Origin: a virus
Direction: 5' to 3' (one strand)
Virus record (IMG/VR): IMGVR_UViG_3300030060_003148
Location: 1-39,001 of that record
Length of the DNA stretch: 39,001 bases
Shown: positions 4,048 through 39,001 of the stretch, one piece after another
How positions within the stretch are numbered: the stretch's first letter is position 1
Layout: each line of letters starts with the position of its first letter
Notes under the pieces: model-generated
The model's input: only the letters and a program-made list of their open reading frames with translations
What the model was told of the DNA's origin: nothing
Databases searched by the model: none
Program-made: the position numbers and the translations under genes

Positions 4048-5553
4048 ATGGCAATTATAGGTGGAAATAGTTTGAATACAGTACCTGCTCCACAACAAGC
4101 GGCACTGTCTACAAACTACTTAGACCTTTCATCCACAAATGGATGGGGTCAACAATATGTACCAGACCTAATGGAAAAAGAGGCTGAAGTTTTCGGACCG
4201 AGAACTATCTCGGGTTTTCTTGCTCAAGTAGGTGCTGAAGAGGCTATGACGGCTGATCAAGTCATCTGGTCTGAACAAGGTAGATTACATCTATCTTATA
4301 CTGGAACCGTAGCGGCAGCTGGTGGTGTAAACGTTGATACTATTGGTGCTTTATCAAGAATAACTTTACAAAAAGATATTGATGGCAACACTATTAGTAC
4401 CGGCGCTGCAGTAGCTGATCACGGTGTTAGAGTTAATGATACTATTATAGTAGCTGATGCTGTTAACGGAGTTGTTAAATGTTTAGTTGTAAAAATAGCA
4501 GACAACGTTATTGATGTTGCTCCATACACTGTTGATAATTTATCAGCACAAGCAACTAACAACGCAACAACTATTTTAGTTTATGGTTCTGAATACGCAA
4601 AAGGAGTTTCGTACTTCGCTGATGCGGGAACTTCAACTCCACAAACACAAGCTGATGCAAGAAGATCTAATGAACCAGCGTTCAAGACTTTTCAAAATAA
4701 ACCAATTATTTTAAAAGACTACTACGAGGTATCAGGATCTGACGCTTCAAGAGTTGGTTGGGTAGAAGTTACTAGTGAGATGGGTGATACTGGATACTTA
4801 TGGTATTTAAAAGCTGAATCTGACACAAGAGCTAGATTTACTGACTATTTAGAAATGTCAATGTTAGAAGCTGTTAAAGACGGTACTTCTCACGCTGATG
4901 AAGTTGGTATAGCTGGTTCTACTCCAATTGGAACTCAAGGTTTATTTGATGCTATTGAAGATCGTGGTAATGTTACATCTGGTGTTACAGGTGTAAACGC
5001 TGCTACTGACTTAGCTGAATTTGATTCTATACTAGCTGAGTTTGACAAACAAGGTGCTATTGAAGAGTACATGATGTTTGTAAACAGAGCTACTAGTTTA
5101 GCTATCGATGACATGCTTGCTTCAATGAATTCTTATGGAGCTGGTGGTACTTCTTACGGAGTATTTGACAATGATGAAGATATGGCATTAAATTTAGGTT
5201 TCTCAGGATTTAGAAGAGGTTCTTATGACTTCTACAAATCTGACTTTAGATACTTAAATGATCTAGCTACAAGAGGAGGTATTAATGCTGCTGCTGGCGC
5301 TAACGCTATTAGAGGTGTTATGATACCAGCTGGTATGTCTTCTGTTTATGACCAACAAGTTGGTTCTAATATGAAGAGACCTTTCTTACATGTTAGATTT
5401 AGAGCTTCTCAAACTGATGATCGAAGAATGAAATCTTGGGTTACTGGTTCTGTTGGAGCTGCTACATCAGCATTAGATGCAATGCAAATTCATATGTTAT
5501 CAGAAAGATGTTTGATCACACAAGGTGCAAACAACTTTATGTTAATGAAGTAA
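4048..5553 (+). CDS. Major capsid protein
   Basis: A 501-residue protein, the fourth gene after terminase, portal and scaffold, followed at once by a strong terminator, which is the expected setting for the most abundant virion protein. The N-terminal arm contains the acidic helix VPDLMEKEAEVFGPRTISGF (residues ~32-50). The middle is rich in small residues (Ala, Gly, Thr, Asp) with an apparent beta-rich insertion around residues 85-180. The C-terminal third has the mixed alpha/beta pattern expected of an HK97-type fold. Length fits a large phage capsid subunit. The leader is an A/T run with ATG in the 'aaattATGgc' context. The fold is inferred; position makes the role likely. Confidence 0.82.
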   Translation: MAIIGGNSLNTVPAPQQAALSTNYLDLSSTNGWGQQYVPDLMEKEAEVFGPRTISGFLAQVGAEEAMTADQVIWSEQGRLHLSYTGTVAAAGGVNVDTIGALSRITLQKDIDGNTISTGAAVADHGVRVNDTIIVADAVNGVVKCLVVKIADNVIDVAPYTVDNLSAQATNNATTILVYGSEYAKGVSYFADAGTSTPQTQADARRSNEPAFKTFQNKPIILKDYYEVSGSDASRVGWVEVTSEMGDTGYLWYLKAESDTRARFTDYLEMSMLEAVKDGTSHADEVGIAGSTPIGTQGLFDAIEDRGNVTSGVTGVNAATDLAEFDSILAEFDKQGAIEEYMMFVNRATSLAIDDMLASMNSYGAGGTSYGVFDNDEDMALNLGFSGFRRGSYDFYKSDFRYLNDLATRGGINAAAGANAIRGVMIPAGMSSVYDQQVGSNMKRPFLHVRFRASQTDDRRMKSWVTGSVGAATSALDAMQIHMLSERCLITQGANNFMLMK

Positions 5554-6622: not shown

Positions 6623-6787
6623 ATGAAATCAAAAGGATTAGGAGATACCGTGGAAAAGTTTACTACAGCCACAGGTATTAAACCATTAACAGAACTTGCT
6701 AGTAGTGCTTTCGGATTTAAAGATTGTGGTTGTGATAAAAGAAAGAATTGGCTTAACAAGCAATTTCCATATAATAATAAACAATGA
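6623..6787 (+). CDS. Small conserved-looking phage protein (54 residues)
   Basis: ATG at 6623 to TGA at 6785-6787. The protein begins MKSKGLGDTVEKFTTATGIK, contains CGCDKRKNWLN near residues 37-47, and ends PYNNKQ. The CxC followed by a KRKxWLN segment is a pattern I recall from very short proteins near tail genes in several marine phages. The function is unknown; a metal-binding or structural staple role is only a guess. The coding call is supported by the A/T leader with ATG in the local start context, by an ATGA overlap with the next gene (6784-6787), and by filling exactly the space after the terminator. Confidence 0.72.
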   Translation: MKSKGLGDTVEKFTTATGIKPLTELASSAFGFKDCGCDKRKNWLNKQFPYNNKQ

Positions 6788-7496: not shown

Positions 7497-8411
7497 ATGG
7501 GATTATTAGATAACTTAAACCAAAGTACATATTATAATGTAACAGATCCTAAAGGTGATTATCAATTTACAACTTTAGATAACATTATAAATGCTTTTAT
7601 GTTTACCTATGTTGGAGAGAGTAAGTTAATTACGAAAGTAAATAGAACGGACGTTCAATTCCATGCTATGAGAGCTGTTCAAGAACTTTCTTACGATGTT
7701 TTTAGATCTATTAAATCTCAAGAAATTGAAGTTCCAGGAACATTAATTATGCCTCTACCTCATGACTATGTTAATTATGTAAAAATATCTAGAGTAGATA
7801 GAGATGGTATTGAAAGACCTTTGTACCCAACAGGTAAAACATCTAATCCTTTTGCAATTACTCAAGATGAAAACGGTACGTATCAATTTGAAGATAGTGA
7901 TGGTGATGCTATTGTTGACGCCTTAAATGAACAAGGTGAAGTAACGCCAGCTGGATTCGAAAGTAACACATGGACAAGTTTTCAAAATCAAGCTAATCCA
8001 AACGACGAAGACATTAGTCAAGCAACAGATATTGAGTACGATAATAGAGGTAGGAGATATGGATTAGATCCACAAAGTGCTCAATCAAATGGAACTTTTT
8101 TTATAGATACTAGAAAAGGATATATACACTTTGGAGCTTCACTAAATGGTGATACTGTGGTGTTAAGATATATTAGTGATGGTTTAGGAACTGATGCTGA
8201 AATGGTTGTACATAAGTTTGCTGAAGAAGCGGTTTATAAACATATAGCATATGGAGTTTTATCAACTAGATCAAATATTCCAGAATTTATAGTTCAAAGA
8301 TTTAAGAAAGAAAGATTTGCTGAAACAAGAAAAGCAAAAATAAGATTATCAAATATTAAGATTGAAGAATTTACTCAAGTGTTAAAAGGAATGGGTAAAC
8401 AAATAAAGTAA
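7497..8411 (+). CDS. Probable tail tubular / ring protein (T7 gp11-like position)
   Basis: A 304-residue protein between the adaptor-like gene and the nozzle-like gene. Residues 25-60 resemble the N-terminal helical element of podoviral tail tubular A proteins (TLDNIINAFMFTYVGESKLI, then VNRTDVQFHAMRAVQEL). The segment MPLPHDYVNYVKISRVDRDG (from residue ~83) is a common pattern in such proteins. A Ca-binding-like loop DSDGDAIVD lies at residues 133-141, in a probable insertion. The C-terminal helix-rich block (residues ~235-300) is basic. It would form a ring that joins adaptor and nozzle. It begins with a clean ATGGG in the 'taattATG' context, two bases after the previous stop. Confidence 0.6.
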   Translation: MGLLDNLNQSTYYNVTDPKGDYQFTTLDNIINAFMFTYVGESKLITKVNRTDVQFHAMRAVQELSYDVFRSIKSQEIEVPGTLIMPLPHDYVNYVKISRVDRDGIERPLYPTGKTSNPFAITQDENGTYQFEDSDGDAIVDALNEQGEVTPAGFESNTWTSFQNQANPNDEDISQATDIEYDNRGRRYGLDPQSAQSNGTFFIDTRKGYIHFGASLNGDTVVLRYISDGLGTDAEMVVHKFAEEAVYKHIAYGVLSTRSNIPEFIVQRFKKERFAETRKAKIRLSNIKIEEFTQVLKGMGKQIK

Positions 8412-17619: not shown

Positions 17620-18282
17620 ATGTTAGGTATAGGAGCAGCAATTACAGGTTTAAGCACAATAGGTTCTTTGTTAGCTGGTAGAAAAGCTAAAAAAGCGGCT
17701 GAAAAAGAAGAAAGGAGAGCACGTAGAGAAGAGATGAAAGCTAAAGCTGAAATGAATAGATTAAAAAACATATACACTCAATTAGACACTAGTAATCCAT
17801 ATCTCAATATGGAAAATAAATTTGAGGATCTAACTGTTAACCAGCAACAAGCACAGTTCCAACAACAAATGTTTCAACAGAGTCAAGCTAATATACTAGA
17901 CTCTTTGAGAGGCGCTGCTGGTGGAGGTGGAGTTGCAGCGTTGGCACAACAATTAGCTCAACAAGGACAACTAGCTTCTCAACAAGCTTCTATCTCAATA
18001 GGACAACAAGAAACAGCTAATCAAATGGCTGAAAGAAGAGAAGCTTCTAGATTAGACACGTTAGAAAGATCTGGGGTTGAAAAATCTAGACAGGTAGAAA
18101 GAGAAAAATACATGACATTATTAGGTATGTCTCAACAAGAAGCTGCAGCAAATAGACAAATGAGACTAGAAGCTCAAAGAGCTGGACACGCTGCTCAACA
18201 AAGCACGTACCAAACTCTTGGTAATACAGCAAGTAATATATTTAGTACCGTAAGTAGCGCTATTAATGCGGGTGGAATGTAA
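17620..18282 (+). CDS. Internal virion protein, T7 gp14-like position
   Basis: A 220-residue protein. Residues 1-24 are Gly/Ala/Ile-rich and hydrophobic (MLGIGAAITGLSTIGSLLAG), followed by a basic linker (RKAKKAAEKEERRARREE) and then long Gln/Ala-rich helices (for example FQQQMFQQSQANILDSLRGA and ALAQQLAQQGQLASQQAS). A short N-terminal membrane-active segment plus Gln/Ala coiled coil is the usual appearance of T7 gp14-type ejection proteins, which leave the virion first and form a pore in the outer membrane. It is the first of three consecutive genes with the size order small-medium-giant seen for gp14-gp15-gp16. The assignment is by architecture and synteny. Confidence 0.66.
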   Translation: MLGIGAAITGLSTIGSLLAGRKAKKAAEKEERRARREEMKAKAEMNRLKNIYTQLDTSNPYLNMENKFEDLTVNQQQAQFQQQMFQQSQANILDSLRGAAGGGGVAALAQQLAQQGQLASQQASISIGQQETANQMAERREASRLDTLERSGVEKSRQVEREKYMTLLGMSQQEAAANRQMRLEAQRAGHAAQQSTYQTLGNTASNIFSTVSSAINAGGM

Positions 18283-25600: not shown

Positions 25601-28600
25601 CTTAATGCCTGTTCGTAGATTAGTTTCTATGGAGAGAGAACAAGATGTTAAAATACTTGCCAAGCTAGATGAAAGACTGGAAACAGTAGATGACATACAA
25701 AATGCTATTGAAGAAGGAATAATACCACCTGATTCTAAAAACAAAGAAAAGGTTGATACATATAATAAAATAATACAACAACCAGTCGTAAATGAAGATG
25801 GTAGTCGTAATATAGAGGGTGAAAAGCAAGAGACTGCTTTCTTAAAGTTCTTTTTCCCACCAACCAAAACACCTCAAGGTAATAAAGATAATTCAAGAGG
25901 TGAAAGAAAAACATCAATGTCAACAGAGTTGGCTAAGGTTATTGTAAAGCAAGAGTTAGATTTATTATTAGGTGATGCTGATTTTAAAAATACAGTTAAT
26001 GAAAAACTAAAAGCATTAGATAGAAATGAAATTGAAAACAGTATTGGCAAAATAAAAGAAGTTATACAAACAAATCCTAGGTACAAACACTCTATGGATG
26101 TTAAACATGTTGAAAAGCTTGCTAACTTTATTAAAGCTGATGGTCTACAAAACGTAATCAACAATGGTAGGTTAAACAAAGGTTATGAAATAGATGGTAT
26201 AAGTCAAACGTCTATAAATATAGCTCAATATCTTTTTGAAAAAGGAGATATTAATAATGACACTAGTAAGGGTTTTATAAAGGCAATGTTAGAGTCTAAT
26301 GTACCTGAAGATGTAAAAGCAGAGTTTTTAAGTCAAAAAACTTTAAACAGAGATAGTGAGTTTTTAAGGTTCTTTGCCGATGATATGCTTATACTAATGG
26401 ATGACTTACAGTTAAATATTCCTCAACAAAAAGGTTTAAGATTTGATATGTTTGGTTTCACTAGTACATACATGAATCCTGGTTTTGATACTAAGTACGA
26501 TGTTTCTTATAATGCCGAGTATCAAGGTATGTTAAACCTGCTTGGTGATGTGGAAACTAATATACCTGGTGTTGATATATCTAGTGTTAGTATTATGAAT
26601 AAGAATGCGGACGGTATATTTAAAAGTGTTATAAAAATACAAGAGTCTGATCTTAGTGTTGAACAAAAGATTGAAAAGCTTGAAAAACTAAAACCACAAA
26701 TACAAGCGGCTAATAGATCTAACATAAACCTATTTAAACATGTTATAAAAAGAGTTAGGCATTTAGTTAAAACAAAACAAATAAGTCCTGTTTCTGCTAT
26801 AAACTTTTTACAAATCCAAACAAACATAGTTATGGGTTTAAGAGGTTTGTCTAAATTGGATTTAATGTACTTAACTGACGGCTCACAAGCTGCTTATGTT
26901 AACAAAAAAGGTAAACCAACAAATAGTAAATTTAGAACGGAAAATAAAAAACGTATTGAAAACGATATAAATCCTAGGTTGTTACCACTAGTAAAAGAGG
27001 CTGCAGCTTTTTATGCTAAAAAAAATCCAAAGTTAACAAAAGAACAAGCTAGAGCTAAAGCTATTGAAAATTTAACTTGGAAAGGTGAACACCTAGGACC
27101 AAGTGCTAATACACTGGTAGATATGTTAGATCTTATATTTAACAATAATATATCTGATAAGCAAATGGATTTTGAAATGGACGATTTACTAGACGGTCAC
27201 TCTCAACTTATAGCTCCAAAGTATATAACAGATTTAATTGATGAAGGTGGTAGAAACAATCCTACTAATTTTCATAGAATTAAGTTCTTACCAAAAAGTC
27301 ATATAAGTAATATATACGATACAGAGGGTAGAGGATATAATGGTTTTATGTTAAACAGAATTAATCAAGAACAAAAGAACTTGTTAAGTGGCGTTCAAGA
27401 TCAGTCTGTTAAAAATGATAACTTACAAAGAGCTTTTGATAATGCCTCTAATATGGTTAAAGTACTTCAAGCTGATTTAGAAAAACGTGGTTATACGTTT
27501 ATTGAAAAAGATGTTGTTAAGTTTAGTAAAGATGTATCAAGAGGTATGTCTACTTTTGATTTTGACGAAACACTAATTATAGATGGTAAAAATTTTGTTG
27601 TAGCTACAAATCCTAAAACTGGTAAACAAATAAAGGTTAGTTCTGGTAAGTGGCCTATTGATGGACCTAAACTCGCTAAACAAGGATATGAGTTTAACTT
27701 TGATGACTTTGTTAATGTAAGGGGTGGCGTAAAAGGTCCTTTATTTCAAAAATTATTAAATAGAATAAAAAAGTTTGGACCAGAAAACAATTTTGTTTTA
27801 ACAGCAAGACCTCAAGAAGCTGCTGTTGCTATACATGGTTGGTTAAAATCTAAAGGTGTAAACATACCATTTCAAAATATAACTGGCTTAGCTAATAGTA
27901 CTGGCGAAGCTAAAGCACAGTGGATGATAGATAAGTTTGCAGAAGGTTATAACGATATGTATTTTGTAGATGATGCATTACCTAATGTTGCTGCTGTCAA
28001 AAGTGTAATGAAACAGTTAGATATAAAAGGTAGTTCAGTTCAAGCTAAAATTAAGTTTAGTCAAGATATGAGTTCTGAATTAAACTCAATGATAGAAAGA
28101 ACAAAAGGTATTGGAGCTGAAAGAATATATTCGTATCAAGAGGCTAAAAAGTTCGGTAAAGAAAAAGTTAGTTTTGATTTTATAGTTCCACCTTCAGCTG
28201 AAGACTTCAAAGGTTTATTATATAGATTTTTAGGTAAAGGTAAACAGGGTGACGCTGACTTAAAGTTTTTTAAACAAACACTGCTTGATCCATATGCTAG
28301 AGGTATGAGGGCTTATGATACTTATAAACAATCTATGTCTACTGATTATGAAAACTTATTAAAGAAATTTCCAGATATAAAAAAGAAATTAAATAAAAAA
28401 ATACCAGGTTATGAGTGGACATTAGATACAGCTATTAGAATGTATTTATATGATAAATCAGGTTTTGATATACCTGGTATTGATGAAAACTTAAAAAGAG
28501 ATTTAATAAATCACGTTGCTAGTAATTCTCAAATCAAAGCTTTTGCTGATTCTCTTAGTATAATTACTAAAGTGGAAGATGGATATGTAGAGCCAACAGA

Positions 28601-30413
28601 TAATTGGATGGTACAAACAATATCAAGTGATTTAAATGATATAGTTAAAAACGTTGGTAGAAGAAAATTTTTACAAGAGTGGCTAGATAATAAAAATAAT
28701 ATATTCTCAGATCAAAACATGAATAAAATTAGAGCTACTTATGGTGTTGATTTTTATGATGCACTAAAAGATATGCTCTATAGAATGGAAAACGGTTCTA
28801 ATAGATATAAAGGTAGAAATAAAATAGTAAACGGATTGTTAGATTGGATTAACGGTTCTGTTGGTGCAACTATGTTTGTTAATATAAGATCGGCTACACT
28901 ACAAACTATATCAATGGTTAACTTTCTTAACTTTGAAAACAATAATATATTTAGAGCTGCTCAAGCTTTTGCTAATCAACCTCAGTACTGGAAAGATTTT
29001 ACTACTATATTTAATTCAGACATGTTAAAACAAAGAAGAGCTGGTTTAGCTATTGACGTATCAGCCTCTGAGTTAACAAAGGTTTTTGCAGAGGGTGGAA
29101 CAACTCATATTCAAAAAATGAGATCTATACTTAGGTATATGCTTGAGAAAGGTTTTACACCAACTAGAATAGCAGATAGTTTTGCAATTGCAGCTGGTGG
29201 GTCAACATACTATAGAAACCAAATAAAAGCTTACACTAAGCAGGGTATGTCCAAAGCTGAAGCTGAAAAGCAAGCGTTTTTAGATTTTCAAGAAATAGCA
29301 GAAGAAACACAACAATCTTCTAGACCTGATTTAATATCAATGCAACAAGCTGGTGTTATGGGTAGGTTGATACTTGCTTGGCAAAATACACCAATGCAGA
29401 TGACTAGGTTAACTAAGAAAGCTGTTTCAGATTTAGTTAATAGAAGGGGTGATTGGAAGTCTAATGTTTCTAGAATAATTTACTACGGTGTCGTACAAAA
29501 TATAATATTTGGTACATTACAAACCGGTTTAGGTTTTATGATGTTCGGTAAAGATGATGATGAAGAGAGAAAAAAGAAACTAGAACAAAGAGTTTTAAAT
29601 GGTGCACTAGATAGTTTACTTAGAGGTACTGGTGTTTACGGTGCTATGGTTTCTACTATTAAAAATACAATACTAGAATATCAAGCACAAGAAGAAAAAG
29701 GTTCTTGGAGAGCAGATCATGTTTATACAATACTTCAAGCTATTAGCTTATCACCACCTATTGGTAGTAAGCTTCGTAAGTTATATGCAGCTAGACAAAC
29801 AGATGTTTTTAATAAAGGTGTTGGAGAAAAATTAGGTTGGAGAATAGAAAACCCTAGTTGGGCTATAGCTGGAAATTTAATAGAAGGTTTAACAAACGTG
29901 CCTGTAGCTAGACTAGTACACAAAGCTAATAACGTTGAAGAGGCTTTAACAAGTAACCATGAGATATGGCAAAGAGTAGCTTTATTAGCTGGTTGGAGTG
30001 CTTGGAGTGTTGGTGTTAAAGATGAAGAACTTGAAGCTGCTAAACAAGAGGTCAAAGCTGAAAAAGAACAAAAAAAGAAAATAGAAAAAGAAAAGAAAAA
30101 AGAAGAAAAGAAAAAACAAAAAGAAGAGGAAAAGAAAAAAGTTGAAGAAGAAAAGAAAAAGGAAGGTATAAAAAAAGTTAGATGTTCTGCTATAAGATCA
30201 AATGGACAGCGTTGTAACATGATGGTTGAAACTAAAAATAAAACAGCCAAGTGTATGTACCACAAAGAATTAACCGACAAAGAGAAAAAAGAAGGTACTG
30301 ATAGAGATAACGATGGAATAAAAGAGTTTAGATGTGTAGCTAATAAGAAAAATGGAGAGAGATGTAAAAATAGAACTGAGAATAAAAACAAAAAATGTTA
30401 CGCTCATCAATAA
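19608..30413 (+). CDS. Giant multidomain internal/ejected virion protein (3601 residues)
   Basis: Third gene of the internal-virion triad. Domains in order: an N-terminal 'KYTIIVNGKTIEKNVSPEKE' segment as in many phage ejection proteins (residues 2-21); a helical, partly coiled-coil region to ~800; hydrophobic Gly/Met-rich segments at ~834-868, 935-951 and 1025-1054; an HExxH zinc-protease-like motif HEFSH (1458-1462) in VFLHEFSHALDG; long helical stretches; a HAD-like hydrolase domain with D2651-x-D-x-T2655, motif II T2732 (VLTARP) and acidic pair D2788-D2789 (YFVDDA); a hydrophobic region at ~3286-3314; a Lys/Glu tract (~3485-3523); and two Cys/His clusters (C3526, C3536, C3549, H3552; C3576, C3586, C3597, H3600). 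It is likely ejected with the DNA and may work on the envelope or host targets. No lytic transglycosylase motif is obvious. Substrates are unknown. Confidence 0.72.
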   Translation: MKKYTIIVNGKTIEKNVSPEKEQEFLAQYKNNSPTLVSDESGKQNSSDNSANGTVSKNALKYEKISKENMESNSEDASSDLSFDDAQSMLLGSSAPDADKDDPFSYLKKPEGSVMQSDKYNDFLELDSDEAIKQLNENPNYPGLKVEKKHGSGQILELTLPDGSKLDIATGSLPPAVLKGSPREQSFNEIKTASTNALNQLDEFYKKNKNVHGSIVGTIIDDDIDMSLSWDRVFKKKDRNEYTSVSEQNEILQHAGYRIETGGMFSDGKVRLYKTGEDGVESVVLEEDLVGGSLDPVRKYLYNNMTEDEANKIKSVASIMTEDVLNKAKQDVINEYGGIVKEDGTIDYTDPEFSNDKIASDLINTPISDTRSSVTRSIEIALNDNYGLNEDGEVVDKGGTPMSQEGRDLVNSYLNEPITETQTEYVKASKQVDKFDYVQKPIEVEREVDGWRKTKYDNVLNELKDQLSPEDYSILEKVINDKVGVNQSNINERKSSLANEYTSNYVTSLNAQATDVQEIAFKIAVDKTNKEIEGEFAVNDAKIQNVKKDMDVKLEAHNNKMESEVFNVAKKHNLGIEYVGSGTEGSWVIDSSNYVDPSLEKKGKRILKYQEDLKLIEDKIKNGDYENKLNKLNEQAKLIQSKTYTTQAKADAANLRLSQISKEYETIQTEWQSNVDDYNTTLGLHNELLEDYETSSKDKGEKLEKELSKKLNGIWGDIKSLTNEYDKGITDLQRERRSISKRAEENGLLSDVINREEDYGKLLSADFGNAVEGIIYGVPAMFGHKESMDYLNLMNQGSQAGLEKYMSVSEARAVSKGVDDDLSRMQWRRTGRMFAQQTPMIIGAIGFSMTPLGPTGGMAAYSILTGIQTGGNTKAQLYNLVDMKDDAQAQLTKLEAVKDKMDPEDYRKQKIQLESTVAMGDLTPMDINKAATATAIIEGGVMMGFSMVGGGTLGNSKKFIDDFLKTKPQTWITQASRTQWSIMAKSAKDFIGRTGSEIAEESIIYLSSEAAQAGILHREADFSMIGDVILDSMMLGGGMNISPILYTATTSSMVTSEMKNLLTDYHTDRDRIKESLGNLKKGESKRRAQLHKELRTLNEKIGFLQTGLEVDVLLAGKDGIKTILENSVNLTNLYADAGVHWGDSQSTIDQKIEDHIKTLKPNEAQDFKLRLEDAQNTINDIKDSSRLKLEGDPENIVKDLYGNKGWDIFKNMLGKDPSFADLDMRDQLSLIHQNIQKNFNAGIQREAKSSPIIKYHVENAIYGKQFQQWIDDKLYGGFRTAEEKTQEDIDNENKLRDEVYSGKGIFETLKKDGLIKNRKTSLENQMYESNAKWINSQRVSAAQTYIDSQKSLNEVIKANGGIDAIRNLEVMAGKDIGEISDMLDTLPDYYFEQKGKTIQEVKKEMLDSFKDGTSKGIIFDGKYIVIGEKDAIQKELNSIESIMSINQSHMLMGTVFLHEFSHALDGITMREGELSQFAENLGKSLRGDKNLNQVHEAAIVRLQNLNTPAKWIAGVKLEDQSRDTKDEYIKSVQEIIQNPNNRDLRRAAETKGKKGFGLGRLRNMVNGLVAGKIPSLGEFNFDSKNTALQYMVSHINSFEKGKLSGFTKGKIAARGVEAKKLKTKIAKLEDELNRVGAKKFSAEKTNELNNAKERLNKISGAVEGDVKRSQDINKRRTEKRKLDQFVQNPDGSPRFDNDSEFKNHRNGDTFGRAGLEIKGVDISPDGKLTTRNFADPLSLDLLDREIMKGMTARGIPSGAPMAEFVRRVRSRLSDKFISEYNYDTIKPIISEVEGMVFYKRNNKGDVTAIEIEDIEGKTTTYKLPKTKDAIVAEGTEIQKGTPLTEGASIFGWMYGAGIIEFAKGDVANKYLKDLDVGSRGAVDIEARTEEGAPRIQIDAGVNLDTDLDNALRTKQEAEQILLMKEELGFDDKFKNEIKRVATEIAPKIGTFPDFNDPNFLVEIEKYAVSKLTDKVKKELGTRSKHVDFLKNNRVAFVNLMPVRRLVSMEREQDVKILAKLDERLETVDDIQNAIEEGIIPPDSKNKEKVDTYNKIIQQPVVNEDGSRNIEGEKQETAFLKFFFPPTKTPQGNKDNSRGERKTSMSTELAKVIVKQELDLLLGDADFKNTVNEKLKALDRNEIENSIGKIKEVIQTNPRYKHSMDVKHVEKLANFIKADGLQNVINNGRLNKGYEIDGISQTSINIAQYLFEKGDINNDTSKGFIKAMLESNVPEDVKAEFLSQKTLNRDSEFLRFFADDMLILMDDLQLNIPQQKGLRFDMFGFTSTYMNPGFDTKYDVSYNAEYQGMLNLLGDVETNIPGVDISSVSIMNKNADGIFKSVIKIQESDLSVEQKIEKLEKLKPQIQAANRSNINLFKHVIKRVRHLVKTKQISPVSAINFLQIQTNIVMGLRGLSKLDLMYLTDGSQAAYVNKKGKPTNSKFRTENKKRIENDINPRLLPLVKEAAAFYAKKNPKLTKEQARAKAIENLTWKGEHLGPSANTLVDMLDLIFNNNISDKQMDFEMDDLLDGHSQLIAPKYITDLIDEGGRNNPTNFHRIKFLPKSHISNIYDTEGRGYNGFMLNRINQEQKNLLSGVQDQSVKNDNLQRAFDNASNMVKVLQADLEKRGYTFIEKDVVKFSKDVSRGMSTFDFDETLIIDGKNFVVATNPKTGKQIKVSSGKWPIDGPKLAKQGYEFNFDDFVNVRGGVKGPLFQKLLNRIKKFGPENNFVLTARPQEAAVAIHGWLKSKGVNIPFQNITGLANSTGEAKAQWMIDKFAEGYNDMYFVDDALPNVAAVKSVMKQLDIKGSSVQAKIKFSQDMSSELNSMIERTKGIGAERIYSYQEAKKFGKEKVSFDFIVPPSAEDFKGLLYRFLGKGKQGDADLKFFKQTLLDPYARGMRAYDTYKQSMSTDYENLLKKFPDIKKKLNKKIPGYEWTLDTAIRMYLYDKSGFDIPGIDENLKRDLINHVASNSQIKAFADSLSIITKVEDGYVEPTDNWMVQTISSDLNDIVKNVGRRKFLQEWLDNKNNIFSDQNMNKIRATYGVDFYDALKDMLYRMENGSNRYKGRNKIVNGLLDWINGSVGATMFVNIRSATLQTISMVNFLNFENNNIFRAAQAFANQPQYWKDFTTIFNSDMLKQRRAGLAIDVSASELTKVFAEGGTTHIQKMRSILRYMLEKGFTPTRIADSFAIAAGGSTYYRNQIKAYTKQGMSKAEAEKQAFLDFQEIAEETQQSSRPDLISMQQAGVMGRLILAWQNTPMQMTRLTKKAVSDLVNRRGDWKSNVSRIIYYGVVQNIIFGTLQTGLGFMMFGKDDDEERKKKLEQRVLNGALDSLLRGTGVYGAMVSTIKNTILEYQAQEEKGSWRADHVYTILQAISLSPPIGSKLRKLYAARQTDVFNKGVGEKLGWRIENPSWAIAGNLIEGLTNVPVARLVHKANNVEEALTSNHEIWQRVALLAGWSAWSVGVKDEELEAAKQEVKAEKEQKKKIEKEKKKEEKKKQKEEEKKKVEEEKKKEGIKKVRCSAIRSNGQRCNMMVETKNKTAKCMYHKELTDKEKKEGTDRDNDGIKEFRCVANKKNGERCKNRTENKNKKCYAHQ
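30060..30170 (+). repeat. Near-homopurine tract encoding the Lys/Glu linker of the giant protein
   Basis: About 110 bases almost entirely A and G on the plus strand, with several A5-A7 runs, encode an EKEKKKEEKKK-type charged helix between the membrane-like C-terminal region and the two Cys/His clusters. Runs of A of this kind are prone to polymerase or ribosome slippage, and a shift here would remove the Cys/His tail. Confidence 0.75.
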
Positions 30414-33967: not shown

Positions 33968-33985
33968 TATGGCTTTTAAAATGAA
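33968..33985 (+). repeat. MAFKM leader repeat, copy 1
   Basis: TATGGCTTTTAAAATGAA, exact 18-base repeat at the start of the 84-residue gene, encoding MAFKMN. Identical copies start at 36197, 37240 and 37871. Confidence 0.9.
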
Positions 33986-34223
33986 TGGCTGGAGTGGTTT
34001 TAAAAAAGCTACTGATCCACCCAAAGATGACGACTCAGTTAAAATGACAGAAGAACAAAAGGAAAAACATAGAGCTAATGTTCTTGAGTATAATAAAAAT
34101 AAAGCTAAACCCCTAAGTGATATTCAAAAAAATAAAATAAAAAAACAATTGAGTGGGATGAATCCAAATGATCCTGAAGCCAAGTTGTTGCAACAAATAT
34201 TAAACTTACCTAAAAATAAATAA
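33969..34223 (+). CDS. MAFKM-leader small basic protein (84 residues)
   Basis: Begins MAFKMNGWSGFKKATD, a leader shared with three other genes in this cassette. The rest is Lys-rich and helical (EEQKEKHRANVLEYNKNKAK, then PLSDIQKNKIKKQLSGMNPN). It is probably a small DNA- or partner-binding helical hairpin, but no known domain is recognised. I recall short 'MAFKM.G.SPF' proteins from Bacteroidota phages without function. The gene starts two bases after the DUF5675 gene, and its stop overlaps the next start by one base (TAATG), so it is translated as part of the same late unit. The repeated leader may be a virion-packaging or partner-binding peptide (inference). Confidence 0.7.
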   Translation: MAFKMNGWSGFKKATDPPKDDDSVKMTEEQKEKHRANVLEYNKNKAKPLSDIQKNKIKKQLSGMNPNDPEAKLLQQILNLPKNK

Positions 34224-34351
34224 TGGCAAGAGTTGTATTTAAATTTGAAGAAAAGAAACGTGTAAAAAGAGGTGTACACGCTAAATCAAAAACCTCAGTG
34301 TTTAAAGGTAGTGATAACTACAAAAAGAAATATAGAGGACAAGGAAAATGA
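34223..34351 (+). CDS. Tiny basic protein (42 residues)
   Basis: ATG at 34223, TGA at 34349-34351. The protein is MARVVFKFEEKKRVKRGVHA followed by KSKTSVFKGSDNYKKKYRGQ and GK. The pattern '(R/P)GVHAK.K.S..K.S.NYKKKYRGQG' is one I recall from very short phage proteins, always unannotated. It is strongly basic (about one third Lys/Arg), so nucleic-acid or capsid-interior binding is plausible. It is coupled at both ends: its start overlaps the previous stop (TAATG) and its stop overlaps the next start (ATGA, 34348-34351). That tight coupling and the recognisable pattern are the reasons to call it a gene despite its size. Confidence 0.72.
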   Translation: MARVVFKFEEKKRVKRGVHAKSKTSVFKGSDNYKKKYRGQGK

Positions 34352-35400
34352 AAAAACTAATTATATTATTTTTAATGATTAGTACTGTTTGTACTGCTCA
34401 ATTAAAAGATTTTTTTAAATATTCTACATTTTATACTTCCATGACAATGGGTACTTCTTTTACTGAAAGAGAGGATTATACTGCTATAAATAAAGGATAT
34501 GAAAATGTAACACAAGTTAATCCTTATGATTATAATTTAACAATTGGGTTGAGAAAAATAGCTCGCATGGATTATGAGTATAAGGTAAAGACTTGGTACT
34601 ATGGAACTGAAGATGGAGTAAGTGACAACGTTACTATTGGTAATGCTGTTGGTTGGGAGTATCTACTTAACTATTCTTTTATACGTGAGCGTGGAGAAAA
34701 ATTTAATAATCAAAATATTTGGCTACGGTACTTAGGTAACAGTTGTGTCACTAAATTACAATACACAGATAATCAAAGAGTTAATTTAAGGTTTGGTTCG
34801 TTTGACACTAGACTTAGATTAACAAAAGGTAATTGGGATTTCACTATTGGTGCAGTAGCAAGAATACATCCAGTTTATGGTATAACACCTATAGATGATT
34901 TTTGGGTGCCAGGAGAAAATACATTTCAAGATTTAGCGGAAGACTTTGGTTACGCTGCAGAACCTTGGATACAGGGATTTTATATCGACCAGAATTGGTA
35001 CGATGTTAGTGGTGGAGATTCCGTACTTATCGCTACCTCAAACGACGAGTTTTTCCACCACTATTTTGGCGACGCGGTTGCTAGGTTTAATGAAAGAGAA
35101 TTAGAAAAGTTAGGATTACAAAGAGAACTTAGCGCTGTTGTGGGTTTGGCTTATTATAAGTATACACCCAAACTATGGTTACACGTGTGGGCTAACTGCC
35201 TACCGCTACATTATGGATTAGATGAATATTCATTTGAGTATGGAGAAAAAAAGTATGACAATATCGAGTGGGATGCTGGTATTGTATTTGGTTCAAGGAT
35301 TACTAAATCACTTGGCATGTTTATTGAAGGAACTCATATGAAATACTGGGATAAACCAGTGTATGAAGTGAAGTTTGGTTTTAACTATTTAATATTTTAA
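34348..35400 (+). CDS. Phage-encoded outer-membrane beta-barrel-like protein (350 residues)
   Basis: Begins MKKLIILFLMISTVCTAQ: a classical signal peptide with probable cleavage after Ala17, leaving an N-terminal Gln as is common in Flavobacteriia. The mature part has alternating hydrophobic/polar strands rich in Tyr and Trp (for example NLTIGLRKIARMDYEYKVKT, WEYLLNYSFIRE, NWDFTIGAVARIHPVYGI) with polar loops. It ends YEVKFGFNYLIF, that is aromatic at the last residue with alternating hydrophobics, the usual beta-signal for barrel assembly. It has 12 or more candidate strands. It would be placed in the host outer membrane or be part of the virion. Possible roles are superinfection exclusion, receptor masking or nutrient/ion passage. 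No known porin family is recognised. The start overlaps the upstream stop (ATGA). Confidence 0.66.
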   Translation: MKKLIILFLMISTVCTAQLKDFFKYSTFYTSMTMGTSFTEREDYTAINKGYENVTQVNPYDYNLTIGLRKIARMDYEYKVKTWYYGTEDGVSDNVTIGNAVGWEYLLNYSFIRERGEKFNNQNIWLRYLGNSCVTKLQYTDNQRVNLRFGSFDTRLRLTKGNWDFTIGAVARIHPVYGITPIDDFWVPGENTFQDLAEDFGYAAEPWIQGFYIDQNWYDVSGGDSVLIATSNDEFFHHYFGDAVARFNERELEKLGLQRELSAVVGLAYYKYTPKLWLHVWANCLPLHYGLDEYSFEYGEKKYDNIEWDAGIVFGSRITKSLGMFIEGTHMKYWDKPVYEVKFGFNYLIF

Positions 35401-35402
35401 TT

Positions 35403-36191
35403 ATGAAGAAATATATTATAATACTATTTGCGTTTATTGGCTCGTTAGCTAATGCGCAAGAATACGATTTTCAGCAGTTGTGTTTAGACTGTGCAGAACA
35501 AAATGGCTTTTACTGTGGAGATGATCCAGCAAACTGGACGCAGTACTCACCTAATGGTTGTGTGCCAAACGGATTAGACGATCTATTTTATTTAAACGAT
35601 GGTTGGGAAGATTGTGCTGATGGTAGCGATGAAGCAGAAGCTGTACCAACGGTAATAGGTGATTGTGGTCCTATAGGCCCACCACAAGGTTGTGATACAA
35701 TATATGTTGAAATACCTGTTATAGAGGTGGATACAATAGAAGTTCCATTTTTTATATACGAAACAGAGTTTATATTTGATACAATTGTTGAAACAGAATA
35801 TATTACAAACATTGTTATAGATACGTTTGAGATTGAGACTTTTGTTCCGGAATACATTTATATAACTGATACAGTTTTTGTTTACGAGGATGTATTAGAT
35901 ACATTATTCGTTGATGTTGTTGAATATATCGATGTTATAATTTATGATACAATAGTTGAGACACAAACTGAGTACGTAGAAATATTTGTAGTTGATACAG
36001 TTGTAGAATATATTGAAGTAATAAATACAGAGTACATAGACTGTGACTCTGGTTTACCTTGTAACTCAGGAATACAAGAGTTAATAGATAAATCGCTTCA
36101 AAATTCTGTAATATATAATATACAGGGGCAAGCAATATTAAAAAGAGAGGGGTTGTACATAGAAGGCGGGAAAATTAATTATAAAAAATAA
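35403..36191 (+). CDS. Secreted protein with LDLa-like motif, DT-repeats and Bacteroidota-type C-terminus
   Basis: A signal peptide MKKYIIILFAFIGSLANA (cleavage after residue 18 before Gln) is followed by a Cys-rich part (~28-95) with D70-C-A-D-G-S-D-E77 preceded by NGW, the calcium-box pattern of LDL-receptor class A modules (DCxDxSDE). The region ~98-215 is a repeat of strands spaced by about 15-21 residues around D-T-(I/V/F) (VDTIEVPFF, FDTIVETEYI, IDTFEIETFV, TDTVFVYEDV, LDTLFVDVV, YDTIVETQTEYV, VDTVVEYIEV), extremely acidic. The end (VIYNIQGQAILKREGLYIEG and GKINYKK) resembles the C-terminal domain of Bacteroidota secreted proteins ('YNxxGQ...GLYIxxGK'). It starts two bases after the barrel gene, so the two may work together at the cell surface. 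The function is unknown. Confidence 0.66.
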   Translation: MKKYIIILFAFIGSLANAQEYDFQQLCLDCAEQNGFYCGDDPANWTQYSPNGCVPNGLDDLFYLNDGWEDCADGSDEAEAVPTVIGDCGPIGPPQGCDTIYVEIPVIEVDTIEVPFFIYETEFIFDTIVETEYITNIVIDTFEIETFVPEYIYITDTVFVYEDVLDTLFVDVVEYIDVIIYDTIVETQTEYVEIFVVDTVVEYIEVINTEYIDCDSGLPCNSGIQELIDKSLQNSVIYNIQGQAILKREGLYIEGGKINYKK

Positions 36192-36196
36192 AACAT

Positions 36197-36214
36197 TATG
36201 GCTTTTAAAATGAA
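36197..36214 (+). repeat. MAFKM leader repeat, copy 2
   Basis: TATGGCTTTTAAAATGAA, identical to the copies at 33968, 37240 and 37871; here it encodes MAFKMK. Confidence 0.9.
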
Positions 36215-36491
36215 GGGCTTTTCAGCTTTTACTAAGACGACTGATGGCAAAAAGAAAAAAGAAACAAAAGAAGATAGATTAACTAAGTCTATGAAACTTC
36301 ACGAAGGAGAGGATAAAGATACATGGACACCTGAAGGTAAACAACCTATGAGTGAATTAATAGGTGATATTGAAGATAGAATAGAATTTTTAGGTGAAGA
36401 TGTTAATTCTGGAAGAAAAACACAAAAAGAAGTTAATCCTGCAATAAGAAGACTTAGAAAAAGATTAAACTATTTAAGACAAAATAGATAA
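36198..36491 (+). CDS. MAFKM-leader small charged protein (97 residues)
   Basis: Begins MAFKMKGFSAFTKTTDGKKK, then a Lys-rich linker and helices (EDRLTKSMKLHEGEDKDTWT, PEGKQPMSELIGDIEDRIEF, RRLRKRLNYLRQNR). The leader is shared with three other genes. The remainder differs from the 84-residue protein, although both are Lys-rich with a 'PLSDI/PMSEL' turn before a helix, so distant relatedness is possible. It begins six bases after the secreted-protein gene, and its stop overlaps the next start (TAATG at 36489-36493). The function is unknown; it could be a small assembly or DNA-binding protein. Confidence 0.66.
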   Translation: MAFKMKGFSAFTKTTDGKKKKETKEDRLTKSMKLHEGEDKDTWTPEGKQPMSELIGDIEDRIEFLGEDVNSGRKTQKEVNPAIRRLRKRLNYLRQNR

Positions 36492-36835
36492 TGGCTAAAG
36501 AATTATCAGAAGATAGCAAGTTTCAGATAAGTGTTAAAACTTTAATTGCTATAGTTGCCGCTGTTGCAACAGTTATATCAGCTTATTTTGGATTAATGGC
36601 AACTATTAACTCTAAGTTTTCAGAACTAGAGAGTAAAGTTGAGCAAGCATTGGAGTTACCAAAACCTGGAACAGGTATTTATACTATAGACATGGGTGAT
36701 CCAGCAGCTACCAATACGTGGCCACCAACTCGTATGGAATTTAATATGAAAGATCAAATGGCTCGTAATAAAATAGATGCGCTAGTAAAAGAAGTTGATG
36801 AGTTGAAAGACGAAATAAAACTACTAAGAAAATGA
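36491..36835 (+). CDS. Single-pass membrane coiled-coil protein, holin/spanin-like candidate
   Basis: A 114-residue protein with a short charged N-terminus, one hydrophobic segment at residues 18-39 (LIAIVAAVATVISAYFGLMA), a first short coiled coil (INSKFSELESKVEQALELP), a loop with PGTGIYTIDMGDPAAT, and a second coiled coil at the C-terminus (KIDALVKEVDELKDEIKLLR). One membrane anchor plus a periplasmic or cytoplasmic coiled coil fits a holin-like, inner-membrane spanin-like or receptor-lock protein, but no family match is clear. Its stop overlaps the next gene (ATGA, 36832-36835), which also encodes a membrane protein. It lies about 2.5 kb after the DUF5675 gene, so a lysis role is possible but unproven. 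Confidence 0.6.
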   Translation: MAKELSEDSKFQISVKTLIAIVAAVATVISAYFGLMATINSKFSELESKVEQALELPKPGTGIYTIDMGDPAATNTWPPTRMEFNMKDQMARNKIDALVKEVDELKDEIKLLRK

Positions 36836-37239
36836 AAAAAAGAATTGATATAACAACTTGGGCGTATGTTGCTACTATAGTGATAATATATTTTCTAGGT
36901 ACAGCAATGGGTTTAGCTCAAGAAACTATAACGGCTAGTAACTTTGATAGTAAAATAGCTAAAGATGTAGTTGCTGTTGAGTTTTGGGCTGAGTGGAATA
37001 AAGCTAATCAATTTAACGAATTGGTTAAATTAAAAGATACCAACGTTTACAGAGTTGATATAATGCACTGTTCAGATTTGCAAGCTGAGTATGATATAAC
37101 AGCAATACCAACTGTAGTTATTTTCGATAACGGTGTAGAAAAAGAAAGGTTTAACGCAAATATAATGTTTCAATTAGAAGCTGATAAAAAAGTAATACAA
37201 AATTCTATTGATACAATAATATTAAATAAATTTCAATAG
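36832..37239 (+). CDS. Membrane-anchored thioredoxin-fold protein lacking the CxxC site
   Basis: A 135-residue protein. Residues 1-29 contain a hydrophobic segment (AYVATIVIIYFLGTAMGLAQ) that may be a signal anchor or a signal peptide cleaved before Gln30. The mature part has thioredoxin landmarks: VVAVEFWAEW (residues ~46-55), then N56-K-A-N59 where active thioredoxins have C-G-P-C, the strand VYRVDIM, and the cis-proline loop TAIPTVVIFDNG with P93. Only one Cys is present (in MHCSDL). It therefore cannot do dithiol exchange at the normal site and may be a binding or chaperone-like subunit, or use the fold for a protein contact. It is translationally coupled to the coiled-coil membrane gene before it. 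The fold call is firm; the role is unknown. Confidence 0.72.
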   Translation: MKKRIDITTWAYVATIVIIYFLGTAMGLAQETITASNFDSKIAKDVVAVEFWAEWNKANQFNELVKLKDTNVYRVDIMHCSDLQAEYDITAIPTVVIFDNGVEKERFNANIMFQLEADKKVIQNSIDTIILNKFQ

Positions 37240-37257
37240 TATGGCTTTTAAAATGAA
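37240..37257 (+). repeat. MAFKM leader repeat, copy 3
   Basis: TATGGCTTTTAAAATGAA, identical to the copies at 33968, 36197 and 37871. Together with the preceding TAG it extends to a 21-base match with the copy at 37871. Confidence 0.9.
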
Positions 37258-37372
37258 CTATAAAAACCTAGAAGAGGTTGTTAAAGAATTAAAAGGCGCT
37301 GTTAAAGCGCATGCTAACCAAGCTAGGGTAGTAGAAAAGCATATTAAAGATATGAAAAATAAAAAGAAATAA
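37241..37372 (+). CDS. MAFKM-leader mini-protein (43 residues)
   Basis: ATG at 37241, TAA at 37370-37372. MAFKMNYKNLEEVVKELKGA continues as a single amphipathic helix with heptads (VKAHANQARVVEKHIKDMKN) and ends in KKK. It is the shortest carrier of the shared leader and is otherwise only a helix, which suggests the leader itself matters. It starts one base after the thioredoxin-like gene stop and is separated from the next ATG by one base, so it sits inside a contiguous mini-gene series. The function is unknown; the coding call rests on the leader repeat, gene packing and helical pattern. Confidence 0.68.
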   Translation: MAFKMNYKNLEEVVKELKGAVKAHANQARVVEKHIKDMKNKKK

Positions 37373-37373
37373 C

Positions 37374-37568
37374 ATGGCATATATACAACCAAATAATCCA
37401 ATACCTAAAACAGGTTGTGGTAGAAGAAGAATGGAAGAAATGAATAACCCTTTTATGAAAAAAGTTCCTAATTGTGTACCAAGAGGTAGTGGTAGCAAAA
37501 GATTAAGCAAACCATCTGGTGATCCATGTTGGGATAATTACGTACAAAGAGGAATGAAAGATAAATAA
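37374..37568 (+). CDS. Small Cys/Arg-rich protein with VPNCVP and DPCWxxYVQxGM motifs (64 residues)
   Basis: Begins MAYIQPNNPIPKTGCGRRRM. It contains MKKVPNCVPRGSGS (~24-37) and then GDPCWDNYVQRGMKDK to the end. I recall 'CW.GY.QVG.KKK.GK.VPNCVP' as a motif in the tails of several marine phage proteins; here the two halves occur in the opposite order. Three Cys could bind a metal. The start follows the previous stop by one base. The function is unknown. Confidence 0.62.
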   Translation: MAYIQPNNPIPKTGCGRRRMEEMNNPFMKKVPNCVPRGSGSKRLSKPSGDPCWDNYVQRGMKDK

Positions 37569-37570
37569 TT

Positions 37571-37870
37571 ATGGCGTACGATAATAGAGGAGTTAGTCCA
37601 TTAAAAATATCTGAAAAAGCTTACGAAAGACAAAATCGTAAGATGAGATCTAAACACAAGTCTGAAACTGGTAAAACGCTAGGATCAAGACAAACTAGTG
37701 GTACAGGTAAACGCAGAATATCATTTGCTTGTAGATTTGCTGGTATGAAAGGTGGTATGAAAGATAAAAATGGTAGTCCAAGTAAGTTGGCTATGGCTTT
37801 GAAAAAATGGGGGTTTGGTAGTAAAGAAGCTGCTAGAAACTTTTGTAGAAAACATAAAAACAAGAAGTAG
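37571..37870 (+). CDS. Small basic phage protein, SFACRFAGMKG-type (99 residues)
   Basis: Begins MAYDNRGVSPLKISEKAYER, followed by a basic helical region (QNRKMRSKHKSETGKTLGSR), then RRISFACRFAGMKGGMKDKN (~48-67) and LAMALKKWGFGSKEAARNFC with a Lys-rich end. A pattern 'RR.SFC.R..GM.G.MKD..G.P...ALALK.W' is known to me from small, unannotated proteins of marine myo- and podophages, possibly DUF6321, but I am not certain of the number. It has a high Lys/Arg charge and two Cys. Its C-terminal part reads like a helix-turn-helix-sized basic segment, so DNA or capsid-interior binding is possible. The preceding context is the usual 'aataattATGGC'. Confidence 0.66.
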   Translation: MAYDNRGVSPLKISEKAYERQNRKMRSKHKSETGKTLGSRQTSGTGKRRISFACRFAGMKGGMKDKNGSPSKLAMALKKWGFGSKEAARNFCRKHKNKK

Positions 37871-37888
37871 TATGGCTTTTAAAATGAA
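37871..37888 (+). repeat. MAFKM leader repeat, copy 4
   Basis: TATGGCTTTTAAAATGAA, identical to the copies at 33968, 36197 and 37240; encodes MAFKMN of the 160-residue protein. Confidence 0.9.
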
Positions 37889-38297
37889 TGGTTTTAATCC
37901 AGGCGAGGGAACAGGTATAAACATGGGTATGTTACCCGAAGTAAAGGTAACAGACAAATATCCTAGTAAAAAAGCTAAACGAAAAGGTGAAGAAAGAAAG
38001 TTAAAACAAAAGCTACATTCTAATCCAGTTGTAAAAAATGTTCACGGTACTACAGATAAAGCAGCTGATGTTATTAAAAAAATAGGTTCAACAGCTGTAC
38101 AGTTATATACTGGTAGCGCAATTTTAAGTGGTGGTAGAAAACTTATTAAAGCGAGAAAATTAGCTAAAAATAAATTTAATCTTTCTAAAATTAAAGAATC
38201 TGTTTTAGATAAACTTAAAAAATCTACTAAAGTTGTTGCACCAATTATTGCTGATGATGTGATAGTAGGAGTAAGCACAAAAAAGAAAGACGAATAG
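37872..38297 (+). CDS. MAFKM-leader basic protein (141 residues)
   Basis: I place the start at 37872, not at the in-frame ATG 57 bases upstream (37815). The leader MAFKMNGFNPGEGTGINMGM begins there in the same TATGGC context as its three sister genes, and the upstream ATG lies inside the preceding gene. The protein has a basic middle (KYPSKKAKRKGEERKLKQKL), a short hydrophobic stretch (STAVQLYTGSAILSGG) and a Lys-rich C-terminal half (LIKARKLAKNKFNLSKIKES), with PIIADDVIVGVSTKKKDE at the end. The amphipathic/hydrophobic segment might associate with membranes. No family is recognised. It is the largest of the four leader-sharing proteins and the penultimate gene of the plus-strand unit. Confidence 0.66.
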   Translation: MAFKMNGFNPGEGTGINMGMLPEVKVTDKYPSKKAKRKGEERKLKQKLHSNPVVKNVHGTTDKAADVIKKIGSTAVQLYTGSAILSGGRKLIKARKLAKNKFNLSKIKESVLDKLKKSTKVVAPIIADDVIVGVSTKKKDE

Positions 38298-38298
38298 T

Positions 38299-38382
38299 AT
38301 GTGTCCGTGTCCAATATGTACAACCGCCGCAATAGTCGGTTTAGTAATTTTTAAAATAGCAATAAAAAAAGGGAGTCGTTAA
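38299..38382 (+). CDS. Tiny Cys-rich membrane peptide (27 residues)
   Basis: ATG at 38299, one base after the previous stop; TAA at 38380-38382 lies in the loop of the terminator hairpin. The peptide MCPCPICTTAAIVG followed by LVIFKIAIKKGSR has three Cys in a CxCxxC arrangement, a hydrophobic stretch of ~13 residues and a basic end, so a membrane-anchored metal- or thiol-binding peptide is conceivable. A CPCxxC also occurs in the 60-residue protein at 30443. Expression is unproven; tight spacing and start context make it plausible. Confidence 0.45.
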   Translation: MCPCPICTTAAIVGLVIFKIAIKKGSR

Positions 38383-38391
38383 ACTCCCTTT
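38368..38391. terminator. Bidirectional terminator between convergent units
   Basis: A 9-bp stem AAAGGGAGT / ACTCCCTTT (38368-38376 with 38383-38391) closes the loop CGTTAA. On the plus strand it is followed by TTATTATTTTA. On the minus strand the stem runs directly into seven Ts. It lies between the last plus gene and the minus-strand Hc1-like gene, so it should stop transcription from both sides. Confidence 0.85.
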
Positions 38392-38397
38392 ATTATT

Positions 38398-38577
38398 TTA
38401 GCTATTTTTTATAGCTTGAATTTGTTTCCTCACGTTCTGAGCAGCCTCCTTAATTGTTTGCATACTCTTTCTAGCCCTAGTTCCGGCTGATTTATTTCCA
38501 CCCATAAACTTTTCTATTTCTTCGTGAGCACTATGCATTTCATCTTGCATAGCATCTAATAATTCTTCTAAATTCAT
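38398..38577 (-). CDS. Hc1-type histone-like protein (59 residues)
   Basis: ATG is the complement of 38575-38577, stop 38398-38400. The protein begins MNLEELLDAMQDEMHSAHEE and carries GNKSAGTRARKSMQ (~27-40) followed by a basic helix (TIKEAAQNVRKQIQAIKN). 'GNK.AGTRARK.L...K...qeiRK.iq..K' is the signature of the short Bacteroidota histone H1-like (Hc1) proteins, which are nucleoid-associated. This one has the full length of the family. It starts 16 bases after the ribonucleotide reductase stop on the same strand and is probably co-transcribed. A phage could use it to compact or shield its DNA or to interfere with host chromatin. Acquisition from a host is likely; the motif match is by memory but strong. 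Confidence 0.75.
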   Translation of the reverse strand: MNLEELLDAMQDEMHSAHEEIEKFMGGNKSAGTRARKSMQTIKEAAQNVRKQIQAIKNS

Positions 38578-38593
38578 ATTTTATTTTATTAAA

Positions 38594-39001
38594 TTAAACA
38601 ACTTCACATGATCCACCAGCGCAAGCTAACTCACCTGATAAATCTGTGTTATCTTCAGCTTCAATAACTTTCGTTAAATCTACATTAGATAATACTTTGG
38701 ACATTTTATTATATTTAGCTTCGTCAATGTCCTCAAACGGAGCTTGAGTATATGTACCACCATCATATGGTAATACAGATAGCCCATTGTAATATTCTCT
38801 ATTTTCCCACATCCATTCACCTGCTTTTTTCCACTCATTCTCTTTTAAAGATATAGTTGCTGACACGTTGTGTGTATTACTACCTCGTCTATGACCAGGT
38901 CGTATCCACTCTTGTGCAACACGCTTAACTCTCTCAAGAGTATCAAATGGTGATTCAGTTCTAAGTATTGAACCATCAGGTGCTTTTTGTGGTATGGAAA
39001 T
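38594..39001 (-). CDS. nrdJ: Adenosylcobalamin-dependent (class II) ribonucleotide reductase, C-terminal part
   Basis: The frame stays open from the stop at 38594-38596 to the window edge, so the N-terminal, larger part lies beyond base 39001; the Val codon GTG at 38864-38866 is internal. The last 135 residues read ISIPQKAPDGSILRTESPFD, then RVKRVAQEWIRPGHRRGSNT, HNVSATISLKENEWKKAGEW, MWENREYYNGLSVLPYDGGT, YTQAPFEDID and end LACAGGSCEVV. NTHNVSATIS, NGLSVLPYDGGTYTQAPFED and a C-terminal CxxxxC are hallmarks of monomeric class II ribonucleoside-triphosphate reductases; the C-terminal Cys pair re-reduces the active site. It supplies deoxynucleotides for phage DNA synthesis. It stands on the opposite strand to the morphogenesis genes, so another module begins here. 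Confidence 0.9.
   Translation of the reverse strand: MSIPQKAPDGSILRTESPFDTLERVKRVAQEWIRPGHRRGSNTHNVSATISLKENEWKKAGEWMWENREYYNGLSVLPYDGGTYTQAPFEDIDEAKYNKMSKVLSNVDLTKVIEAEDNTDLSGELACAGGSCEVV

Follow-up and report, generated by a model that had tools for sequence, protein, structure and literature searches.

Four otherwise different small genes in a 39-kb virus record (IMGVR_UViG_3300030060_003148, positions 1 to 39,001; hereafter the window, meaning the whole stretch of DNA analyzed) begin with the same 18-mer, TATGGCTTTTAAAATGAA, which encodes the start of a short N-terminal peptide, hereafter the tag. The window covers part of the genome of a flavobacterial podovirus-like phage, an uncultured marine virus infecting Bacteroidetes-type bacteria. 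Sequence comparisons with related records showed the tag to be conserved as a peptide, modular, restricted to one phage lineage, encoded on the late (capsid) strand and homogeneous within each genome. By analogy with known packaging systems, and with modest confidence, we propose that it is a virion-loading address tag carried by a variable set of late proteins, small and for the most part basic, in one phage clade.

The 18-mer was found exactly at 33968, 36197, 37240 and 37871, as an earlier reading made from the letters alone (hereafter the sequence-only reading) had noted; shuffled sequences gave an expectation of 0.19 matches at ≤3 mismatches. ATGs inside these copies, at 33969, 36198, 37241 and 37872, start open reading frames (ORFs) of 84, 97, 43 and 141 amino acids (aa), the lengths given by that reading, and three of the four continue with G(F/W), again as it had described. 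Its view that the proteins are otherwise different also held: the four bodies behind the tag fell into four separate BLAST clusters and are therefore not simple paralogues. Body relatives of the 84-aa protein bear MGFKMKGFSPFT or YKQKGWSAFT tags, and relatives of the 43-aa protein were found in five loci (L079, L092, L174, L180 and L326). The nearest body relative of the 97-aa protein, in L339, matches its residues 18–97 at 70% identity and has the tag displaced downstream, ahead of an insertion of about 45 residues. The sole related IMG/VR locus found for the 141-aa protein was L361, the match covering residues 1–17 alone. A helical hairpin was predicted for residues 51–96 of the 97-aa protein, the model being usable for this C-terminal part only, and in two models the tag segment was of low confidence, its first ten residues having a mean predicted local distance difference test score of 54 and 51.

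The leader is widespread. Its exact 17-mer gave at least 120 matches in IMG/VR, compared with 10 in all for a permuted control 17-mer; a single strict pattern turned up as many as seven copies in one record. Among the matches listed, 106 of 109 distinct exact ones lay at starts of mostly small ORFs, as did 123 of 134 distinct non-exact, synonymous ones; the tagged proteins so identified had a median length of 115 aa and a median pI of 9.9, most being basic, and 49% had Gly at position 7. Of the 97 cluster representatives, 31 have a G-aromatic pair right after the hexamer; the expectation from internal positions is 0.35. Both observations indicate that the motif is longer than the hexamer searched, and the sequences define a peptide motif of about 8–16 residues with a core of roughly [FY]-K-[MQL]-x-G-[FWS]-x-[PAG]-F. 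The motif may also be written [FY]-K-[MQL]-x-G-[FWS]-x-P-F, and MAYKQKG-type variants occur. MAFKMN at the C-terminus of proteins in L038, L116 and L218 was rejected as a tag, because a fibre-like protein naturally ends in this way. Literature searches on MAFKM and on DUF6321 returned nothing relevant.

The level at which the leader is conserved was assessed by comparing the 5′ ends of MAFKM-type phage proteins as DNA and as protein, as the sequence-only reading had suggested; codons vary and the peptide is kept. Synonymous codons across the matches listed were GCT 114, GCA 99, GCG 19 and GCC 11 for Ala, TTT 215 and TTC 28 for Phe, and AAA 228 and AAG 15 for Lys, and tag copies of relatives differ at such sites. 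Window codon usage favours the observed codons (GCT 0.62, TTT 0.88, AAA 0.77), so that agreement of four independent peptide copies at all three synonymous sites has P = 0.034. The DNA-level exactness of the window copies, which had attracted attention, is thus less remarkable and largely codon bias. Residues 7–16 of tags on unrelated bodies were far more alike within genomes than between them (similarity +3.0 vs −4.1; 0 of 5000 permutations reached this), and from residue 17 onward the difference was nearly gone. By contrast, codon sharing at identical residues was the same within and between genomes (0.71 vs 0.70 for residues 2–6; 0.42 vs 0.44 for residues 7–16), and within-genome identical codons numbered 285 against 285.4 expected for residues 2–6 and 115 against 123.2 for residues 7–16. 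This equality excludes recent copying of DNA and indicates selection on the peptide in each genome; shared ancestry could add to the resemblance within genomes. Moreover, the motif lies 8–14 residues inside some proteins (MPYFKENRGFKMKGFSPYTKK, MRKKGNRGFRMKGFSPFT, MPDFKKDTKGFKMKGWSPFT; displaced copies in L170, L321, L037, L339 and L427), which together with the MAYKQKG-type variants shows it to be independent of the start codon. On these comparisons, the conserved entity is the peptide, not the DNA or RNA.

The bodies behind the tag are diverse. The 279 distinct tagged proteins (among the matches listed) formed about 97 BLAST-separable body clusters, possibly an overcount since many bodies are of low complexity; clustering by shared 5-mers was dropped for BLAST because low-complexity Lys-rich repeats fused everything. 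Recognizable bodies include minigluzincin-type proteases, DUF6321, DUF5872 and coiled coils. The commonest is a minigluzincin (selecase-like) body in which H53, E54, H57 and E95 were invariant in 45 sequences, so that HExxH and a downstream Glu ligand lie within a domain of ~100 aa, as in minigluzincins; it gave a weak match to the selecase profile (E 0.009) and weak structural matches to abylysin, selecase and IrrE. A tagged mini-metalloprotease family of ~105 aa (L062:3215-3526 and about 90 relatives) has HExxH and the downstream Glu intact and no Pfam match; it is catalytically plausible and possible cargo. The same bodies were seen tagged, untagged, with variant tags or with a displaced tag. 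DUF6321, for instance, is tagged at L317:356-670:- and in L427 (MAYIQKGFTPFTK), and DUF6321 proteins of cyanophages and pelagiphages are untagged, with alignment limited to the body. Tagged proteins in L115, L203, L222 and L394 contain glycine-rich segments such as GMIPGVGNIADAANTALSAGRAG, which we take to resemble the pre-toxin segments of polymorphic toxins; the L013 copy had no Pfam match, and PADLOC found no defence-related match in the L115 copy.

Distribution of the tag follows the capsid protein. Fifty long records were picked solely by the MAFKM pattern; a homologue of the window capsid protein is encoded in 43 of them (≥52% identity) and in 17 of 23 long MAYKQKG records, and all 80 tag matches of those 43 records lie on the capsid-gene strand. 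In the seven MAFKM and six MAYKQKG records without the capsid protein, the matching proteins have no G-aromatic/SP element after the match, or the match is a coincidence inside or at the end of a protein; treating these 13 as chance matches, a decision taken after inspection, leaves 60 of 60 genuine records with the capsid. In the reverse direction, starting from capsid relatives, the tag was found in 8 of 9 records of ≥40 kb. The MAFKMKGF pattern had no match in 84,980 prokaryote genomes, and ATGGCNTWYAARMWR had none in four cultured or reference relatives from sister groups. In the records compared, the tag is restricted to phages of the window capsid lineage.

Two sets of observations link tagged proteins to virions and support virion loading. 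A relative of the window, L427 (76% capsid identity; the same gene content as the window right end), encodes on its reverse strand, at nt 4806 and 5378, an internal-virion-type protein in two neighbouring copies, one untagged and one tagged. The untagged copy reads MSFAIVGG...LDTSNPYLDMENMMEDLTVN, and in its tagged paralogue, MAYKQKGWTPFDKK...LDTSNPYDHMDNPYEDL, the N-terminal segment is replaced by the tag, which looks like a natural exchange of N-terminal modules. Between the tagged copy and the untagged window protein at 17620–18282 the identity is 38%. Proteins occupying the corresponding place carry structural annotations in phi38:1, Calle_1 and Panino; for phi38:1 gp099, sequence similarity does not go beyond the N-terminus (E 1e-5). 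In addition, a tagged family in L033 has untagged homologues in phi38:1 gp080 and the corresponding Calle proteins, which are annotated as structural.

The main alternative to virion loading, and in our estimate a less likely one, is that the tag recruits late proteins to a non-virion partner, such as a phage or host hub or a membrane or lysis complex in the infected cell. Peptide-level, genome-specific evidence would suit any receptor, and tagged genes of the window are interleaved with DUF5675, holin-like and secreted proteins. However, such a partner explains less well the strict confinement to one capsid lineage, the tagged paralogue of a virion-type protein and the structural annotation of an untagged homologue. 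Quite improbable is common descent of the tagged proteins from one ancestral gene of which the N-terminus alone is still recognizable: many bodies are low-complexity and Lys-rich with recurring SP[LMF]K-type elements, and BLAST may miss distant homology, but clearly different domains (minigluzincin with HExxH and downstream Glu, DUF6321, DUF5872) occur among them, and DUF6321 exists untagged in cyanophages and pelagiphages.

Explanations at the DNA or RNA level, both raised by the sequence-only reading, fared worse still. The four exact copies, and the exchange of bodies between leaders, would suit an 18-mer that marks a crossover site or a 5′ end copied recently, but the excess of synonymous identity within genomes that recombination or recent duplication should leave was looked for and not found, relatives use other codons, and exact agreement is unremarkable under window codon usage; we hold this very improbable. 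What stands of that proposal is that downstream parts have been exchanged; the swapping is old, with no trace of a recent crossover at the site. A conserved translation-initiation or RNA element, suiting A-rich initiation in Bacteroidetes, accords with the A-rich upstream region, the A at −3, the T at −1 and the AT-rich first codons. It is equally hard to credit, since the expected nucleotides fixed relative to the start codon were not seen: synonymous changes are tolerated, within-genome peptide similarity reaches residue 16, the motif occurs displaced into proteins, and the capsid and large structural genes start otherwise.

The leader can be compared with known packaging signals. Internal proteins of phage T4 are diverse and small and share only a capsid-targeting sequence (CTS) (PMC3012670). 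Like the CTS of IPI, IPII and IPIII, the tag is one short conserved N-terminal peptide common to small, Lys-rich, basic late proteins whose bodies are highly diverse and unrelated (PMC3012670), and T4 may serve as the closest working parallel for virion loading. Unlike it, the tag belongs to another phage lineage and shows no apparent sequence resemblance, as judged by eye. The T4 CTS is cleaved by the gp21 protease. No Peptidase_S77 (gp21-type) match was obtained in 22 records, control genomes likewise giving none, and no Peptidase_S78 was found near the capsid gene in these records. The single Peptidase_S78 match, to a prohead protease, was distant: in the 93-kb contig G027 (the contig of L021) it lies 67 kb from the capsid gene (7623–8024 and 75366–76757), and this is possibly a joined or unusual genome. 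Encapsulin cargo-loading peptides, of ~10 residues, occur on unrelated cargo proteins and suffice for loading into an HK97-fold shell (PMC7355545). The tag resembles them as a short peptide on unrelated proteins; they are mostly C-terminal and cellular with a solved receptor pocket, hydrophobic and on the inner face of the shell, whereas the tag is near the N-terminus, viral and has a putative receptor. We do not claim membership in either system; packaging is a proposed function here. P22, too, is a podovirus with internal proteins and a related portal type, one relative being annotated ‘P22 like portal protein’. The P22 ejection proteins gp7, gp16 and gp20 are fixed and dedicated and are not known to share a tag. 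Finally, crAss001, a Bacteroidetes podovirus, stores cargo proteins in capsid and tail, which the parts of the report consulted describe as large conserved proteins, with no common short tag mentioned there (PMC10172136).

Returning to virion loading, the tag would bind one common putative receptor in the assembling particle, be it capsid lining, scaffold, portal or internal core. A single receptor per phage genome would fit because tag residues 7–16 are far more alike within than between genomes, a contrast nearly lost from residue 17 onward, and the receptor would be phage-encoded, since the tag follows the capsid lineage. Binding would load DNA-binding and enzymatic cargo into the virion, to be injected with the DNA into the next cell. 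Of the suggestion in the sequence-only reading that the leader is a peptide tag for binding to capsid or a partner, the peptide tag is well supported and virion loading is the purpose that fits best. More tentatively, and somewhat short of probable in our judgement, the tag may constitute a clade-wide, genome-tuned peptide code that loads exchangeable cargo (proteases, DNA-binding modules and others) for injection, by which any gene could become cargo through a ~12-residue tag that co-evolves with its virion receptor. Some points weigh against virion loading. The cultured relatives phi38:1, Elemovirus and Panino have no tag, and being basic might be enough for a protein to enter virions untagged. 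The ‘structural’ labels come from deposited records, and their basis in mass spectrometry is unconfirmed; in a Cellulophaga methylation proteomics paper gp numbers differ from GenBank numbering, leaving gp080 unconfirmed in virions (PMC13288928).

Capsids of Flavobacterium Elemovirus, Maribacter phage Panino, an environmental podovirus record, Cellulophaga phi38:1 and Calle share 34–46% identity with the window capsid protein, and those of the Cellulophaga phi18:3 group share 23%. The window portal (468–2864) and other head proteins matched PHROG head families, and a putative scaffold lies at 2891–4027. The rightward block ends in the tagged genes and, alongside them, genes for DUF5675, thioredoxin-like and DUF6321 proteins. 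Features of the window are collected in the table.

Table. Tagged genes and other features of the window
Feature	Position	Strand	Remarks
Major capsid protein	4048..5553	+	Marker of the phage lineage in which the tag occurs exclusively; Calle_1 homologue annotated structural protein/major capsid protein
Small GLGDT..TGIK..CGC protein	6623..6787	+	Untagged here; L014 and L061 relatives tagged
Internal-virion-type protein	17620..18282	+	Untagged; tagged paralogue in relative L427
3601-aa single ORF, probably a giant virion protein	19608-30413	+	Two terminal Cys/His repeats (RCxAxxxxGxRC...CxxH); primase-zinc-finger match only weak
Tagged protein 1, 84 aa	33969..34223	+	Tag MAFKMNGWSGFKK at about 33969-34007; body cluster 20
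Tagged protein 2, 97 aa	36198..36491	+	Tag MAFKMKGFSAFTK at about 36198-36236
Thioredoxin-fold protein	36832-37239	+	Hydrophobic N-terminus; within late block; PF00085, E 2e-9; kept in relative L427
Tagged protein 3, 43 aa	37241..37372	+	MAFKMN, then directly coiled-coil-like body YKNLEEVVKELKGAVKAH
Small Cys/Lys-rich protein	37374..37568	+	Probable variant tag (MAYIQPNNPIPK); MAY[KTVI]Q starts recurrent in lineage
DUF6321 protein	37571..37870	+	PF19846, E 2.7e-8; start MAYDNRGVSPLK, untagged or weak variant
Tagged protein 4, 141 aa	37872..38297	+	Tag MAFKMNGFNPGEGTG at about 37872-37916
Intrinsic-terminator-like hairpin, bidirectional	38368..38391	+	3′ of last tagged gene; closes late gene block
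Small protein with full-length Hc1 (histone H1-like) Pfam match	38398-38577	-	E 4e-18; convergent with tagged gene block
Partial ORF	38594-39001	-	Ends ELACAGGSCEVV; resembles ribonucleotide reductase end; fragment without Pfam match

The small genes of these uncultured phages are almost all unannotated. If the tag loads cargo, one could read from sequence which proteins are injected or belong to the virion across a large group of such phages, and searching for the tag would be a direct route to early-acting and counter-defence proteins. The tag would also represent a second, independent case of the T4 internal-protein principle, and a portable address tag for putting proteins into a phage particle.

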